Shown here piece after piece: positions 30,452 through 63,481 of a stretch of 64,000 bases of DNA. The stretch comes from Candidatus Sulfotelmatobacter sp. Lineage in GTDB: Bacteria > Vulcanimicrobiota > Vulcanimicrobiia > Vulcanimicrobiales > Vulcanimicrobiaceae. The DNA is taken from positions 62,001 to 126,000 of the forward strand of contig DATJRY010000013.1 of the NCBI GenBank assembly GCA_035504415.1. The letters are read 5' to 3'. Every line of letters begins with the position of its first letter. The stretch's first letter is position 1. Under the pieces are notes generated by a model. The model saw only the letters and a program-made list of their open reading frames with translations, was not told where the DNA came from and did no database searches. The position numbers and the translations under genes were made by a program.

Positions 30452-31462
30452 GTGACGCCGATCCAGCTCACCGCCGAGCCGCTGGAGCTCCCGCTCAAGC
30501 ACACCTTCACCATCACCCGTTCGTCGGCGACCGTCAGCCGCACGGTGCTCGTGCGGCTGCGCTGGAACGGCATCGAGGCGCTCGGCGAGAGCGCGCCGTC
30601 CGAACGGTACGACGAGAGCGTCGAGAGCGTCGTCGCCGGGCTGCGGGCGCACGCGCTCGGCGCGGACCCGTACGCGCTCGACCGGCTGTTGGCGGGCTTG
30701 CCGCCCGCGCAGCGGTGCGGGCTCGACCTCGCGCTGCACGATTGCGTCGGCAAGGACGTCGGCCGGCCGCTCTGGCGGCTGCTCGGCCTCGATCCCGGCG
30801 CGACGCCGGTCACCTCGTTCACCATCGGGATCGCCGCGCTCGACGAGACGCTGGCCAAGGTGCGTGAAGCCGGCAGCCACCCGATCCTCAAGATCAAGCT
30901 CGGCACCGGCGCGGAGATCGAGACGATCGCTGCGATTCGCGCCATCTACACCGGCACGATCCGCGTCGACGCGAACGAAGGCTGGACGCCCGAGCAGGCG
31001 GTGACGCTGCTGCGCGAGCTGGCGCGCTACGACGTCGAGTTCTGCGAGCAGCCGATTCCGGCCGGCACGCCCGAGCGGTTGCGCTGGATCCGCGAGCGTT
31101 CGCCGATCCCGCTGGTGACCGACGAGGACTCGGTCAACGCGAGCGACCTGCCGGCGCTGCGCGGCTGCGTCGACGGCGTCAACGTCAAGCTGGTCAAGTG
31201 CGGCGGTATCCGCGACGCGCTGGCGATGATCGCGACCGCGCGCGCGCTGGGCCTGAAGATCATGCTGGGCTGCATGGTCGAGAGCGCGATCCTGGCGACG
31301 GCCGCGGCGCAGCTCAGCCCGCTGGTCGACTGGGCCGATCTCGACGGCCCGTTCCTGACCGCGCACGATCCGTTCGCCGGCGTGACCTATGCCGACGGCA
31401 AGCTGGTCCTGCCCGACGCGCCCGGACTCGGCGTGCGCGAACGCGCGGAGGCCGTCCGCTGA
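30452..31462 (+). CDS. Enolase-superfamily epimerase/racemase (dipeptide epimerase or DgcA type)
   Basis: A GTG at 30452 gives 336 residues of the mandelate-racemase/muconate-lactonising branch. The acid/base lysine is in LKIKLG (Lys147/149), the metal ligands are Asp173 (VDANEGW), Glu199 (CEQPI) and Asp224 (VTDEDS), and the second lysine is in NVKLVKCGG. A DLD motif near the C-terminus is like that of L-Ala-D/L-Glu epimerases. The DUF1611 gene follows directly. That pair has been described as DgcA/DgcN, an N-acetyl-glutamate racemase with a D-glutamate N-acetyltransferase, so either activity is possible. Confidence 0.85.
   Translation: MTPIQLTAEPLELPLKHTFTITRSSATVSRTVLVRLRWNGIEALGESAPSERYDESVESVVAGLRAHALGADPYALDRLLAGLPPAQRCGLDLALHDCVGKDVGRPLWRLLGLDPGATPVTSFTIGIAALDETLAKVREAGSHPILKIKLGTGAEIETIAAIRAIYTGTIRVDANEGWTPEQAVTLLRELARYDVEFCEQPIPAGTPERLRWIRERSPIPLVTDEDSVNASDLPALRGCVDGVNVKLVKCGGIRDALAMIATARALGLKIMLGCMVESAILATAAAQLSPLVDWADLDGPFLTAHDPFAGVTYADGKLVLPDAPGLGVRERAEAVR
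31447..31461 (+). promoter_or_regulatory. Strong ribosome-binding site before a CTG start
   Basis: GGAGG at 31447-31451 lies seven bases before CTG at 31459, and that CTG overlaps the epimerase stop (CTGA). The downstream frame has no ATG, GTG or TTG at a suitable place until residue 20, which would remove the first beta-strand. A CTG initiation codon is the best reading. Confidence 0.6.
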
Positions 31463-32517
31463 GCCGCCGCTACGCGATCCTCGCGACGCACGCGTTCACC
31501 TCGCGCGCCGCCAAGATGGCGCACGGCGTCATCCGCTACGGCAGCGACGTCGTCGTCGCGGTGATCGACCCCGACTACGCCGGCCGCAGCGTGCGCGAGG
31601 TGCTGCCGTACCTCGCCAGCGACGCGCCGATCGTCGGCACGCTTGCGGAGGCGATGCGCTTCGAGCCGACCGCGCTGCTGGTCGGCATCGCGCCCGCCGG
31701 CGGCGCGCTGCCCGACGAGTTCCGCGCCGCCATCGCCGAGGCGCTGCGCGCGCGGCTCGAGGTCGTCAGCGGCCTGCACGCGATGCTCAACGACGACGCG
31801 GAGCTGGCCGCCTTGGCACGCGAGCACGACTCGCGCATCTGGGACCTGCGGCTGCCGCCCGCGGCGCCGCTCTTCTCCGGCGCCGCGTGGGACGTCGAAG
31901 CGAAGATCGTCTTGACCGTCGGCAGCGACGCCGCGGTCGGCAAGATGACCGCGTCGCTCGAGCTGTGCCGCGCGTCGCGCGCGCAGGGCGTCGAGGCGAC
32001 CTTCGTGCCGACCGGCCAGATCGGGATCGCGATCGCCGGCTGGGGCACCGCGATCGACCGCGTCGTCTCCGACTTCGCCGCCGGCGCGGCCGAACAGCTG
32101 GTGCTCGAGGGCGAGCGGCGCGCGCGCGACCTGCTGTGGGTCGAAGGCCAGGGCGGGATCACGCACCCCGCCTTCGCGCCGGTGACGCTGGCGCTGCTGT
32201 ACGGCAGCGCGCCCGACGCGCTGGTGCTGGTGCACAACGTCAGCCGCACCAGCATCGAAGGCTACGACGTGCCGCTGCTCTCGTACCGCGCGCTGATCCG
32301 CACCTACGAGGGGCTGTGCGCGGGCGTCAAGCCGGCGCCGGTGATCGGGATCGCGCTCAACACGCGCGACTGCGAGCCCGCGCACGCCGCCGCCGAGATC
32401 GCGCGGGCGCGCGAGGAGACGGGGCTGCCGTGCGAAGACGTCGTGCGCAACGGGCCCGACGCGCTCTACGCCGCCATCGCGCCGAAGATCGTCAAAACGG
32501 GAGTGCTGCATGTCTGA
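31459..32517 (+). CDS. DUF1611 P-loop protein, DgcN-like D-glutamate N-acetyltransferase candidate
   Basis: From the CTG at 31459 the protein has 352 residues. The N-terminal Rossmann-like half contains GVIRYGSDVVVAVIDPDYAG and LLVGIAPAGGALP. The C-terminal half has a P-loop (VGSDAAVGKMTA, residues 154-165), PTGQIGIAIAGWGTAIDRV and WVEGQGGITHPAF, the DUF1611 signatures. DUF1611 proteins next to the racemase DgcA have been reported to N-acetylate D-glutamate. It overlaps the epimerase by four bases and the peptide-binding protein gene by eight. The family call is good; substrate by analogy. Confidence 0.8.
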   Translation: MSRRYAILATHAFTSRAAKMAHGVIRYGSDVVVAVIDPDYAGRSVREVLPYLASDAPIVGTLAEAMRFEPTALLVGIAPAGGALPDEFRAAIAEALRARLEVVSGLHAMLNDDAELAALAREHDSRIWDLRLPPAAPLFSGAAWDVEAKIVLTVGSDAAVGKMTASLELCRASRAQGVEATFVPTGQIGIAIAGWGTAIDRVVSDFAAGAAEQLVLEGERRARDLLWVEGQGGITHPAFAPVTLALLYGSAPDALVLVHNVSRTSIEGYDVPLLSYRALIRTYEGLCAGVKPAPVIGIALNTRDCEPAHAAAEIARAREETGLPCEDVVRNGPDALYAAIAPKIVKTGVLHV

Positions 32518-34135
32518 ACGGCCGGCGCTGGCGCTCCTGGCGGCGTTCTTGCTCGCGAGCTGCGCGCCCAGCGCGCCGGTCGCGAGCGGCACGACGCAGC
32601 GCAACGCCTGGACCGAACCGGGCCACCTGCGCATCGGCTCGTCCGAGGAGCCCGACTCGCTCAACCCGATGTACGCCAACGATCAAGCCGCGGGCGACGT
32701 CGCGAACCTGCTCTACGAGCCGCTCTTCCGGTACGACCAGAACGGCGAGTTCGTCCCGGCCGCCGCGACGGTCGTGCCGACGCTGGCCAACGGCGGGATC
32801 AGCCGCGATGGCAAGACGATCACCTTTCACTTCCGCCACGGGATGCGCTGGTCCGACGGCGCGCCGTACGACGGACGCGACTTCGTCTTCACCTGGCACG
32901 CGGTGATGAACCCGCACAACAGCGTGCGGCTGCAGATCGGCTGGGACGACGTGCGCGCGATGCAGCTGCGCGATCCCTACACCGTGGTGGTGCGGCTCAA
33001 GGCGATCAACGCCGGGATCCTCGGCGACCTGGCCGGGATCGGCGGCTCGGGCTATCCGCCGATCCCGGCGCATCTGCTGGCCACGCTCCCCAGCCTCGAC
33101 CGCGCGCCCTTCAACGCCGCCCCGATCTCCAGCGGCCCGTTCGTGCTCACCAAGTGGAACCACGGCGCCTCGCTCGAGTTCGCGCCCAACCCGTACTACT
33201 GGCGCGGCGCGCCCGGCTTGCAGCAAATCAGCTATCGCATCATCCCCAACTCCGAGACGCTGCTCTCCGAGATCCGCACGCACGAGATCGACGTCTACGA
33301 CTCGGTCAGCGAGAACCAGATCGGCGAGCTGAAGACGCTGAGCGGGGTGACGATCAGCAAGCACCTCAGCGCGAACTGGCGGCGCCTGCAGTTCAACTGC
33401 GCCAAGCCCCAGCTGTCCGATCCGCGCGTGCGGCTGGCGATCGCCGAAGGCGTCGACTGGGACTGGATGCTGCGCACGATCTTCCACGGCTACGACGAGC
33501 GCGCGGCGAGCGACGTCGTGCCGACCTCGTGGGCCGCGCCGCCGATCAAGCCGTGGCCGTACGATCCGGACGCCGCGAAGCGATTGCTCGACGCCGCCGG
33601 GTGGACGGTCGGCGCCGACGGGATGCGTGCCAAGAACGGCATGCCGCTGGCGTTCTCCGTCTCGACCACCCCGGCCAAGCAGGCCAACGTGCAGGCCGAA
33701 GTCCAGATGCAGCAGCAGCTGCGCACGCTCGGCATCGCCCTGGAGATCAAGAACTACCCGACCAACCTGCTCTTCGCGCACGACGGTCCGATCTATACCG
33801 GGCGCTACGACAGCGAGTTCACCATCGAAACCAACGGCCCCGATCCGGACAACGAGGGCGCCTGGAGCGAACGCTTCATCCCGCCGGTCGGCGCCAACAC
33901 CAGCTGGCTGCGCGATCCGATCATCACGCAGACCAGCCACGCCGCGCTGCTGACGTACGACCGCGCCAAGCGCCGCGCGCTGTACTGGCGCGAGGAAGCG
34001 CGCATCCACCAATTGGTGCCGGCGGTGTTCTTCTATTGGCAGAATCAGTACGCGGCCGTCAACAGCGACCTGCGCGGCTGGCGGCCGGCGACGTACTTCT
34101 CCGATCTGTGGAACGCGTGGGAGTGGCGCATCTGA
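32510..34135 (+). CDS. Peptide ABC transporter substrate-binding lipoprotein (SBP family 5)
   Basis: A 541-residue lipoprotein with a lipobox LLASC near residue 18. It has the family 5 pattern: GSSEEPDSLNPMYAND, ADGKTITFHFR-like region (RDGKTITFHFRHGMRWSDG), DFVFTWHAVMNP, SSGPFVLTKWNHG and LSDPRVRLAIAEGVDW. Such proteins bind peptides in the periplasm. No permease or ATPase gene follows, so the rest of the transporter must be elsewhere. Its place in an epimerase operon fits uptake of cell-wall or D-amino-acid peptides. Confidence 0.88.
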   Translation: MSERPALALLAAFLLASCAPSAPVASGTTQRNAWTEPGHLRIGSSEEPDSLNPMYANDQAAGDVANLLYEPLFRYDQNGEFVPAAATVVPTLANGGISRDGKTITFHFRHGMRWSDGAPYDGRDFVFTWHAVMNPHNSVRLQIGWDDVRAMQLRDPYTVVVRLKAINAGILGDLAGIGGSGYPPIPAHLLATLPSLDRAPFNAAPISSGPFVLTKWNHGASLEFAPNPYYWRGAPGLQQISYRIIPNSETLLSEIRTHEIDVYDSVSENQIGELKTLSGVTISKHLSANWRRLQFNCAKPQLSDPRVRLAIAEGVDWDWMLRTIFHGYDERAASDVVPTSWAAPPIKPWPYDPDAAKRLLDAAGWTVGADGMRAKNGMPLAFSVSTTPAKQANVQAEVQMQQQLRTLGIALEIKNYPTNLLFAHDGPIYTGRYDSEFTIETNGPDPDNEGAWSERFIPPVGANTSWLRDPIITQTSHAALLTYDRAKRRALYWREEARIHQLVPAVFFYWQNQYAAVNSDLRGWRPATYFSDLWNAWEWRI

Positions 34136-34136
34136 C

Positions 34137-35021
34137 GTGCTGCGTCTCATCGAGCGGCCGGAGGGGCATCCGGTGCTGCACGTGCCGGGAGCGACGCGCG
34201 CGGTCGTCTCGTGGAACAGCCCCGCGCCCAGCGGCGCGCTGGCGCTGATCGCGCACCGGGTCGACGGCAGCGTCTCCGACCCGCTGCTCTACGTGCGTTG
34301 GTCGGAGCATGAGCGCCGCTCGCTGGACGGCGCCGACACCACGACTCGCATCCAGACCGACGTCGTGCACAGCGACGTCCCGCTCTCGGGCGTGGGCATC
34401 TCGACGACGGTGCCGCTCGACGCGGTCGCCGTCGCCGCCCCGCCGCCGCCGGGTGCGCTCGCGCCGGTGCGGCCGCGCGTGAACCCGCTCGACGTGCCGC
34501 CGCTGCGGCAGGACGTCGCGACCCATCCCGAAGCGCACGGCAAGTGGTGCTCGGCCGCCGCGCTGGCGATGCTGCTGCGCTTCCACGGCATTCCGGCCGA
34601 CGTGGCCGGCGTCGCGCACAGCGTCGAAGACGCGGCCTACGGCGGGACCGGCAATTGGGTGTTCAACGCCGCCTACGCCGGCGCGTGTGGGCTGCGCGGT
34701 ATCGTCGCGTTCTTGCGCGGCATCGATCACGTCAGCGCGTTCGTGGCCGCCGGGCTCCCGGTCGCGATCTCGATCGCGTGGCGCCGCGGCGAGCTGTCGG
34801 ACGCGCCGCTCGAGCAGAGCGACGGCCACCTGATCGTGGTGCGCGGATTCGAGCGCGGCGCGGTGCTGGTGCACGATCCGGCCCACAAGGGCGTCGCGAC
34901 CCGCTACCCGCGCGCGGCGCTCGAGCGCGCCTTCCGCGGTCACGGCGGCGTCGCGTATCTGGTCGCGCCGCGCGAACGCACCACCGAGCTGGTCGTCCTG
35001 ACCAACGATCCCGCCGCGTGA
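34137..35021 (+). CDS. C39-like peptidase domain protein
   Basis: A 294-residue protein. Residues 1-120 form an unrecognised beta-rich region with a proline-rich linker. The C-terminal part is a papain-fold C39-like domain: GKWCSAAALAMLLRFHG carries the likely nucleophile Cys, SDGHLIVVRGFE the His and VHDPAH the Asp. Such proteins cut peptides or crosslinks. It starts two bases after the binding-protein stop and overlaps trmL by GTGA. No signal peptide is seen. Together with the epimerase it suggests peptide breakdown. Confidence 0.75.
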   Translation: MLRLIERPEGHPVLHVPGATRAVVSWNSPAPSGALALIAHRVDGSVSDPLLYVRWSEHERRSLDGADTTTRIQTDVVHSDVPLSGVGISTTVPLDAVAVAAPPPPGALAPVRPRVNPLDVPPLRQDVATHPEAHGKWCSAAALAMLLRFHGIPADVAGVAHSVEDAAYGGTGNWVFNAAYAGACGLRGIVAFLRGIDHVSAFVAAGLPVAISIAWRRGELSDAPLEQSDGHLIVVRGFERGAVLVHDPAHKGVATRYPRAALERAFRGHGGVAYLVAPRERTTELVVLTNDPAA

Positions 35022-35536
35022 GCACGCAGCCGCAGCAGCGGGTGGTCGACGCGCACGACGTGCGCGACGTCCCGCTGCACCTGGTGCTCGTCGAGCCGCA
35101 GATTCCGCCCAACACCGGCAACGTCGCGCGCTTGTGCGCGGCGACCGGGTGCGCGCTGCACCTGGTGGAACCGCTCGGCTTTCGGCTCGACGACCGCGCG
35201 CTCAAGCGCGCCGGACTCGACTACTGGGACGCGCTCGGCGTCGTCGTGCACCCCTCGCTGGACGCCTTCTTCGCGGCGTTCGCGCCCGAGCGCAGCTGGC
35301 TGCTCAGCACGCGCGCGCAGCGCCGCTACGCCGACGCGTCCTTCGCGCGCGGCGACGCGCTGGTGTTCGGCAAAGAGACCGCGGGCTTACCGCAAGCGTT
35401 GCTCGACGCCCACCCCGAGCGCGCGCTGCGCATCCCGATGCGCGCCGGCGCGGTGCGCTCGATCAACCTCTCGACGGCGGTCGGCGTCGTCGCCTACGCG
35501 GCGCTGGCGACGCTGGGTTTCCCCGGACTGCGCTGA
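35018..35536 (+). CDS. trmL: tRNA (cytidine/uridine-34 2'-O)-methyltransferase
   Basis: A GTG at 35018 gives 172 residues of the SpoU/TrmL group. The start of the SPOUT fold reads LHLVLVEPQIPPNTGNVARLC, and the knot region is LVFGKETAGLP, RIPMRAGAVRSINLSTAVGVV. It methylates the wobble ribose of certain tRNAs. It overlaps the C39 gene (GTGA) and, at its 3' end, the convergent MFS gene by 43 bases. Its link to the peptide genes is probably only positional. Confidence 0.93.
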   Translation: MSTQPQQRVVDAHDVRDVPLHLVLVEPQIPPNTGNVARLCAATGCALHLVEPLGFRLDDRALKRAGLDYWDALGVVVHPSLDAFFAAFAPERSWLLSTRAQRRYADASFARGDALVFGKETAGLPQALLDAHPERALRIPMRAGAVRSINLSTAVGVVAYAALATLGFPGLR

Positions 35537-61876: not shown

Positions 61877-63481
61877 TCAGTGGAGGAAGTAGCGGTAGGT
61901 GCTGAAGACGAGGGCGATGTCGCGTTCGTCGGCAGCGGCGATCACGTCGGGGTCGCGGATCGACCCCTGCGGCGCGATGACGGCCGTGCAGCCGGCGTCG
62001 GCGGCGGCGTGCAAGCCGTCGGGAAACGGAAAGAACCCGTCGCTGGCGCACGCCGCGCCGGCGGCGAAGTCGTGCGCCCGATGGGCGGCGATCTGGACCG
62101 CGCTCACACGATTGGTCTGCCCCGCACAGATACCACGCGAAACCCCGTCCCGGACCAACACCACGCCGTTGGACTTGACGTGCCGCACGATATCCCAGGC
62201 GAAGACGAGGTCCCGCCACTCGCCGGGGCTCGGCGCCCGCTGGGAGACGACCGTCCAGCGTTCGGCCGGCGACTGCGGGTCGTCGTCCTCGGCCAGCACG
62301 CCGCCCAGCGCGCTGCGGACGCGCAGCTCCGCCGCGATCTTCTCCGGCGCGCCGGGGCGAAAGCGCATGATGCGCAGCTGCTTCTTCTTGCGCAAGCGCT
62401 CGAGGGCGGCGGGCTCGAACGCCGGGGCTGCGACGATCTCGAGGAAGAAGTCCCACAGCGCGTCGACGGCGGCCGCGTCGACGGTGCCGTCGACGGCGAT
62501 GATCCCGCCGTAGGCCGAGACCGGGTCGGCCTGCAGCGCCTCGCGCACCGCCTGGGCGACGTCGTCGCGCTCGGCGACGCCGCAGGGGACGGTGTGCTTG
62601 ACGATCGCCGCGCGCCGCATGGCGTCGAACGGCAACGGCGAGGAGCCCGGGGCGAAGCCGTGCTGCGCGCGCACCAACAGACGCAACGTCGCGTCCAGGT
62701 CGAGCAAGTTGTTGTACGAGAGCGCCTTGCCGCCCAGTTGCTCGGGCAGCTGCGCCTCGCGCGCGAGGTAGAAGGCGGCGCGATCCTGCGGATTCTCGCC
62801 GTAGCGCAGCGGCTGCTCGATCGGAATCGTCAGCGCCAGCGAGCCGGGCAGCTCGTTGGCGACCAGTCCCGACTCGAGGTAGCGCGCGATCGCGCTGTCG
62901 TACTCGGCCGTGCGCTCGAAGGCGCGCGTCGCGAAGCTGCGGCGGGTCGCGTGATCGACGCCGCCTCGCCCCAGCGCCGCGATGTACGCGTCGTACTGGC
63001 CGGGATCGCTGAGCACCGTGACGTGATCGAAGTTCTTGGCGGCCGCGCGCAGCAGCGAGACGCCGCCGATGTCGATCTGCTCGATCGCCTCTTGCAGCGT
63101 CGCGCCTTCGCGCGCGACCGTCATCTCGAACGGATAGAGGTTGACGACGACGGTCGCGATGGTCGGGATGCCGTGCTCGCGCGCCTGGGCGCGGTGCTCG
63201 GCGTTCTCGCGGTCCTGCAGGATGCCGCCGAACACGTTGGGGTGCAGCGTCTTGACGCGGCCGTCGAACAGCGACGGATAGCCCGTCAGCTCGCCGACGT
63301 CGCGCACCTCGATCCCCTCGGCCAGCAAGTGGGCGCGCGTGCCGCCGGTGGCGAACAGCGGCGTGCCCGCGTCGGCCAGCGCGCGCGCCAGCGGGACGAC
63401 GCCGGTGCGGTCGTAGACGGAGAGCAGCGCGGCGCCGGCGACCGGCGCGCGCGCGGGCTCAGGTGACGAGCGCGGGTTCAC
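61877..63481 (-). CDS. purH: Bifunctional AICAR transformylase/IMP cyclohydrolase
   Basis: A 534-residue PurH. The N-terminal cyclohydrolase half has LLSVYDRTGVVPLARAL, ATGGTRAHLLAEG, VKTLHPNVFGGIL and VVVNLYPFEMTVA. The transformylase half has LRYGENPQDRAAFYL, IVKHTVPCGVAERDD, DPVSAYGGIIAV and ASDGFFPFPDGLHAAADAGCTAVIAPQGSIRD. It does the last two steps of IMP synthesis. The GTG start lies 23 bases inside the end of smc; the stop abuts repeat copy B. Confidence 0.97.
   Translation of the reverse strand: MNPRSSPEPARAPVAGAALLSVYDRTGVVPLARALADAGTPLFATGGTRAHLLAEGIEVRDVGELTGYPSLFDGRVKTLHPNVFGGILQDRENAEHRAQAREHGIPTIATVVVNLYPFEMTVAREGATLQEAIEQIDIGGVSLLRAAAKNFDHVTVLSDPGQYDAYIAALGRGGVDHATRRSFATRAFERTAEYDSAIARYLESGLVANELPGSLALTIPIEQPLRYGENPQDRAAFYLAREAQLPEQLGGKALSYNNLLDLDATLRLLVRAQHGFAPGSSPLPFDAMRRAAIVKHTVPCGVAERDDVAQAVREALQADPVSAYGGIIAVDGTVDAAAVDALWDFFLEIVAAPAFEPAALERLRKKKQLRIMRFRPGAPEKIAAELRVRSALGGVLAEDDDPQSPAERWTVVSQRAPSPGEWRDLVFAWDIVRHVKSNGVVLVRDGVSRGICAGQTNRVSAVQIAAHRAHDFAAGAACASDGFFPFPDGLHAAADAGCTAVIAPQGSIRDPDVIAAADERDIALVFSTYRYFLH

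Follow-up and report, generated by a model that had tools for sequence, protein, structure and literature searches.

A class-wide conserved operon of Eremiobacteria joins a DgcA-like epimerase and a DUF1611 protein to a peptide-binding lipoprotein and a C39-like peptidase and may salvage D-amino-acid-containing peptides

What is the function of an operon in which an enolase-superfamily epimerase and a DUF1611 protein are encoded together with a peptide-binding lipoprotein and a C39-like cysteine peptidase? The question is raised by a window of 64,000 nucleotides (nt; positions 62,001 to 126,000 of contig DATJRY010000013.1, assembly GCA_035504415.1) from an Eremiobacterota metagenome-assembled genome (MAG) with a size of 4.17 Mb and a completeness of 95.7%. 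Among named genomes, this one is closest to soil and palsa MAGs of Candidatus Eremiobacterota (WPS-2), and its gene content was examined family by family. The sequence-only reading of the window had placed the four genes, called here A (epimerase), N (DUF1611), SBP (solute-binding protein), and C39, in one plus-strand operon of overlapping or abutting genes. Their positions were verified and their families were confirmed by Pfam (Table 1); the operon extends past position 35021 into a fifth gene, trmL. N overlaps A by 4 nt, SBP overlaps N by 8 nt, C39 starts after a gap of 1 nt, and TrmL overlaps C39 by 4 nt. The operon is probably a variant of the known D-glutamate (D-Glu) and cell-wall-peptide pathways that takes up small peptides and converts D-amino acids to the L forms.

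The arrangement is not due to chance. The same order of the five proteins was found in eight further Eremiobacterota loci with about 61-86% identity, and DUF1611 was above the cut-off in 113 of the 149 genomes of the phylum, nearly all within one class. The comparison set contained 46 Eremiobacteria loci, including the window. Among these, 42 were of the type of the window (first copy), three were of a second-copy type, and one was a lone DUF1611 gene near a hydroxyproline-like cluster. A was located near N in 45 of the 46 loci that carry N. Of the 42 first-copy loci, 40 have A immediately upstream of N, and 41 have SBP downstream of N; where the locus left room for them, C39 came next in 35 and trmL in 24. 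SBP, and mostly C39, is kept with A and N across three families of the class, while most of the flanking genes vary; photolyase, for example, was present in 9 of the 42. Because the block is kept at these counts, A-N-SBP-C39 is a selected unit. It is a class-wide conserved catabolic operon, in which TrmL is probably a passenger.

The catalytic residues of A are all intact, including the lysine pair for 1,1-proton transfer (K147/K149 and K246) and the metal ligands D173, E199, and D224. The best solved relative of A is 3IJI, with 41% identity; the identity between A and E. coli YcjG is 35%. In a maximum likelihood tree of 57 sequences, A was placed in a clade (support 100/99) with YcjG, DgcA, and the Deinococcus, actinobacterial, and Bacteroides enzymes. 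The Eremiobacterial enzymes are sister to the Bacteroides dipeptide epimerases, including 3IJI (98/97). The sequence-only reading had named a grouping with muconate cycloisomerases or o-succinylbenzoate synthases (OSBS), together with a lack of both activities, as the result that would speak against it, and the tree put A in the dipeptide-epimerase/DgcA clade instead. A muconate cycloisomerase is excluded by the tree, and the DxD motif is present in A. No grouping with OSBS was found either, with MenC forming a long branch of unsure placement. The phylogeny had also been expected to choose between DgcA and the L-Ala-D/L-Glu epimerases. It defined the sister group of A, and A was not among the annotated DgcA sequences; the tree cannot separate the two functions because the annotated DgcA and YcjG sequences interleave.

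The automatic names and motifs were then compared. The best-scoring NCBIfam models for A and N are DgcA and DgcN, and the first two genes had been read as a DgcA/DgcN pair. The pairing itself resembles that system; the match to it fails at the level of the models and the trees. A scored 231.5 bits on the DgcA model NF042940 (cut-off 400) and N scored 213.6 bits on the DgcN model NF041892 (cut-off 480), and both lie outside the proteobacterial groups. The dipeptide epimerase models also stayed below their cut-offs with A (NF011708, 156.3 bits against 343; NF041118, 110.8 bits against 500). In addition, YcjG (L072:8931-9896) passed the DgcA model with 424 bits, and the Bacteroides dipeptide epimerase scored 221.8 bits, near the score of A. 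The rank of the NCBIfam models was rejected as evidence for DgcA, and the automatic naming is no evidence for an N-acetyl-D-Glu racemase here because YcjG also passes the model. The DLD motif of A (residues 296-298), in which D296 and D298 align with D297 and D299 of YcjG on the eighth strand, had been said also to fit a dipeptide epimerase. It turned out to be uninformative and was rejected as a discriminator, being common to DgcA, YcjG, all dipeptide epimerases, and A.

N has both DUF1611 domains (Pfam 94 and 211 bits) plus the family motifs. In the tree, the Eremiobacterial N proteins form their own clade (100/98) outside the DgcN group, nearer to the actinobacterial than to the proteobacterial DgcN. 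The closest solved relatives are 2OBN (Anabaena) and 2G0T. N matched 7XRJ with 154 bits; in the tree, this structure is nearly identical to the DgcN of Ruegeria. The probable CTG start of N overlaps the TGA stop of A as CTGA, with a GGAGG 7 nt upstream. CTGA is located at the same place in loci L008 and L031, and GTGA in L006 and L009, making this a conserved candidate for a non-AUG start.

The third gene encodes a lipoprotein of the PF00496 family (244 bits) with the lipobox LASC, and a recognizable lipobox was found in the called start region of 36 of 45 relatives. The genome contains 14 SBP_bac_5 genes versus one OppB-type permease with an adjacent OppC and one Opp-type ATPase pair. This single Opp-type set was found on contig C17 (C17:37748; 366319-367562; L137). 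The 16 other genomes of the class that were examined have 9-20 such binding proteins and 1-6 such permeases. In E. coli, MppA and OppA use a shared transporter. The simplest reading, by analogy with MppA/OppA, is that the binding proteins would be served by one shared Opp transporter. The vicinity of the sole OppBC genes found (L137:6733-13634) also contains a MutS-domain protein, a gamma-glutamyltranspeptidase, a beta-keto acid cleavage enzyme, and a P-loop protein that weakly matches DUF1611.

The structure of C39 was modeled with a pLDDT (predicted local distance difference test score) of 95.2 from 36 sequences. An N-terminal beta-sandwich (about residues 1-105) is followed by a papain-like C39 domain. 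Q125, C138, and H231 are invariant among the relatives, and D247 is nearly invariant. The closest structures to the model were C39 peptidases (Z 16.5-17.4) and the pseudomurein endoisopeptidase PeiR (Z 16.0), whereas the N-terminal domain alone had general beta-sandwich matches only, none specific (best Z 8.3). The papain-like fold and the catalytic Cys/His/Asp are shared with the C39-like peptidase 3ERV and with PeiR (8Z4H/8Z4N). The window protein differs from these in that it stands alone, carries the N-terminal beta-sandwich, and has neither an ABC-transporter fusion nor a leader-peptide partner. C39 is probably cytoplasmic because no signal peptide is visible in the window protein. NlpC/P60 occupies a comparable place next to the epimerase in Bacteroides and Deinococcus, and by this analogy we infer that C39 could do the same job.

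Elsewhere in the same genome (L034:6280-10591), N and A occur as a second pair with 53-54% identity to the first one. A divergent TonB receptor gene and a PF00144 serine hydrolase gene precede this pair, and an XRE/cupin regulator and a further SBP_bac_5 gene come after it. Comparable loci elsewhere in the class carry additional PF00144 hydrolases. This second copy strongly resembles the plasmid clusters of sphingomonads, with which it has XRE, serine hydrolases, and TonB in common.

The same families were also found together in other lineages. The sphingomonad plasmid clusters (Sphingobium and Croceicoccus) encode an XRE regulator, serine hydrolases, a dipeptide epimerase, a TonB receptor, and DUF1611; of the two clusters, one also has a dipeptidase and the other a peptide transporter. 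They share with the window a DUF1611 protein, a dipeptide epimerase-like enzyme, and peptide machinery, and differ by having the TonB receptor, serine hydrolases, and dipeptidase instead of the SBP lipoprotein and C39. A and N are paired in Thermoleophilia and related actinobacterial loci, several of which have one or two M29 aminopeptidases; between the DgcN and M29 genes of one actinobacterial cluster (L013:3783-5324), no Pfam match was obtained. Haloprofundus, a haloarchaeon, and Pantoea carry the pair plus an Opp-type ABC system, and Ruegeria carries it with a D-amino-acid transaminase. Both peptide and free D-amino-acid roles occur around the pair, and in Eremiobacteria SBP and the peptidase shift the balance toward peptides. 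The sequence-only reading had favored peptides rather than free D-Glu alone, and this is supported by the peptide transporters or peptidases that accompany the genes in the second copy and in the sphingomonad, Thermoleophilia, haloarchaeal, and Pantoea loci. In Phaeobacter, a DUF1611 gene overlaps the gene of a pyridoxal-phosphate-dependent racemase of the alanine/ornithine type (L121:4917-7168), which is another DUF1611-racemase pairing.

A function was proposed from these data: the operon would salvage D-amino-acid-containing peptides. These would be taken up and hydrolyzed, and their D residues would be inverted in the form of acyl or dipeptide derivatives. We give this a probability of about 0.5. 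The SBP lipoprotein would capture short peptides and deliver them to an ABC transporter of the Opp type whose genes lie elsewhere in the genome. C39, to judge from its fold and catalytic residues, would hydrolyze peptide or isopeptide bonds. The DUF1611 enzyme would acylate the released D-amino acid, as suggested by DgcN, and A would use a two-lysine 1,1-proton transfer to invert the D-amino acid, in its N-acyl or aminoacyl form, at the alpha carbon. The resulting L form would be freed by ordinary hydrolases. The default substrate would be D-Glu from peptidoglycan, and a D-Glu/cell-wall role is plausible. Peptide salvage is supported by the coupling of A with N, the retention of SBP and C39, the SBP_bac_5 gene of the second copy, and the peptide machinery in other lineages. 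It is further supported by the intact catalytic residues, the matches of the C39 model, and the one Opp set for 14 binding proteins.

Several observations weigh against peptide salvage. The called genes in and around the operon include no permease or ATPase, and the C39 gene is absent from some loci of the class. A C39 peptidase alone is no proof of D-peptide substrates. No NlpC/P60, MpaA, or Mpl gene lies beside the first-copy loci, giving no gene-level link to peptidoglycan. No assayed enzyme of this epimerase subgroup was found in the literature searched. The last point concerns the pocket of A. Arg24 of the 20s loop and Asp297 of YcjG are presumably substrate contacts, with Arg24 contacting the side chain. 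In an ungapped alignment, A26 of A aligns with Arg24 and is not basic. YcjG, the Bacteroides enzyme, 4GFI, and each of the five annotated DgcA proteins carry Arg or Lys here. None of 41 first-copy Eremiobacterial enzymes has a basic residue at this site, where 32 have Glu and 6 have Ala. A retains R23 (R21 in YcjG) and R52/Y53 (R50/Y51 in YcjG), which are common to DgcA and YcjG. In the epimerase of the second copy, the R23 position is occupied by Gly and the Arg24 position by Leu.

The pocket of A may therefore have one part of the Glu-type signature without another, with a possible shift of specificity. The earlier proposal of D-Glu as the substrate is weakened by this loss: D-Glu is not assured because the Arg24-type basic residue is missing, and another D-amino acid is a possible substrate of a side-chain pocket unlike that of DgcA and YcjG. 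A related scheme, which we hold only tentatively, is an acylate-invert-hydrolyze cycle for a non-glutamate D-amino acid or mixed peptides. DUF1611 would make the acyl or aminoacyl derivative, the epimerase with the re-specified pocket (Glu or Ala for Arg24) would invert it, and C39 would free the L-amino acid. If peptide salvage is correct, D-amino-acid catabolism of the DgcN-DgcA type would also cover peptides, and it would reach an entire class of uncultured soil bacteria, for which a literature search on Eremiobacterota and D-amino acids returned nothing useful. The comparison also indicates that automatic DgcA/DgcN names and DLD-based calls do not fix the substrate of this enzyme group. 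The YcjG-24 position and the operon together provide a concrete test case for a shift of the substrate range in these epimerases.

Other explanations were weighed against peptide salvage. A and N could be a plain DgcA/DgcN pair, in which N transfers an acetyl group from acetyl-CoA to free D-Glu, A racemizes N-acetyl-D-Glu to N-acetyl-L-Glu, and SBP, C39, and TrmL are neighbors without a role. A D-Glu racemization pathway with DgcN as the key gene has been described (PMC12363236), the DgcN route is one way of D-Glu use (PMC10845958), and EC numbers are available for the DgcN/DgcA pathway (PMC11747546). As in that pathway, the DUF1611 gene adjoins that of an MR/MLE enzyme from the same clade, in which the catalytic residues are identical and R23, R52/Y53, and DLD are shared, and the top models carry these names. 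However, the proteins show about 30-34% identity with the pairs of Pseudoalteromonas and Pantoea, score far under the cut-offs of models of which the DgcA one does not single out DgcA, and fall outside the DgcA/DgcN groups. A has Ala where all five annotated DgcA retain a basic residue, no LysR gene (DgcR) adjoins A, and the order is A-N with SBP and C39 added, conserved too strictly for bystanders. We consider the plain pair unlikely.

A could instead serve murein peptide recycling as a dipeptide epimerase of the L-Ala-D/L-Glu type, with C39 cutting the peptide in place of NlpC/P60 and N having a separate task. The Bacteroides finegoldii dipeptide epimerase, a close kin of 3IJI, adjoins an NlpC/P60 gene, and the Deinococcus epimerase is found with an SBP, permeases, an M20 peptidase, and NlpC/P60; the M29 aminopeptidases by the actinobacterial pair could split the L,L-dipeptide. 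A resembles the Bacteroides enzymes (3IJI/3IJL/3IJQ) and YcjG in clade and DLD, but it has no NlpC/P60 or MpaA neighbor and lacks the Arg24-type residue. Its constant partner DUF1611 is absent from the Bacteroides and Deinococcus epimerase neighborhoods, and no Mpl above the cut-off was found in the genome. Recycling of this kind is rather improbable for A. That the block is only a conserved housekeeping neighborhood with no common pathway is very improbable. The trmL gene at the end and the recurrence of DUF72 and serine hydroxymethyltransferase genes nearby agree with it, but the genes overlap, A-N-SBP persists in 40-41 of the 42 loci whereas photolyase, the major facilitator superfamily (MFS) transporter, and even trmL vary, and N-A-SBP is rebuilt at a second, unrelated locus.

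Table 1. Positions of the operon features in the window.
Feature	Position	Strand	Description
A, enolase-superfamily epimerase/racemase	30452-31462	+	336 aa, GTG start; Pfam MR_MLE_N/C
GGAGG, probable ribosome-binding site of N	31447-31451	+	read in sequence
N, DUF1611 protein (DgcN-like)	31459-32517	+	352 aa, probable CTG start; Pfam DUF1611_N/C
SBP, SBP_bac_5 solute (peptide)-binding lipoprotein	32510-34135	+	541 aa, lipobox LASC; Pfam SBP_bac_5
C39-like cysteine peptidase	34137-35021	+	294 aa; Pfam Peptidase_C39_2
TrmL-type tRNA 2'-O-methyltransferase	35018-35536	+	final operon gene; Pfam SpoU_methylase

The operon is flanked by a divergent photolyase gene on the upstream side and by a convergent MFS transporter gene on the downstream side. 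The lone DUF1611 gene of the class (L077:7326-14040) has no epimerase beside it, and its neighbors are dihydrodipicolinate synthase, proline racemase, and D-amino-acid oxidase, as in hydroxyproline breakdown. From this gene, DUF1611 may act on other amino acids as well. Some relatives of the window have an additional gene between DUF1611 and SBP (L004:8050-9072 and L007:8050-9081), which encodes a protein of about 340 aa. The extra gene was compared with a sphingomonad hypothetical gene, and the two are unrelated. The inserted protein has a signal-peptide-like start and a weak match similar to the C-terminal domain of squalene-hopene cyclase.

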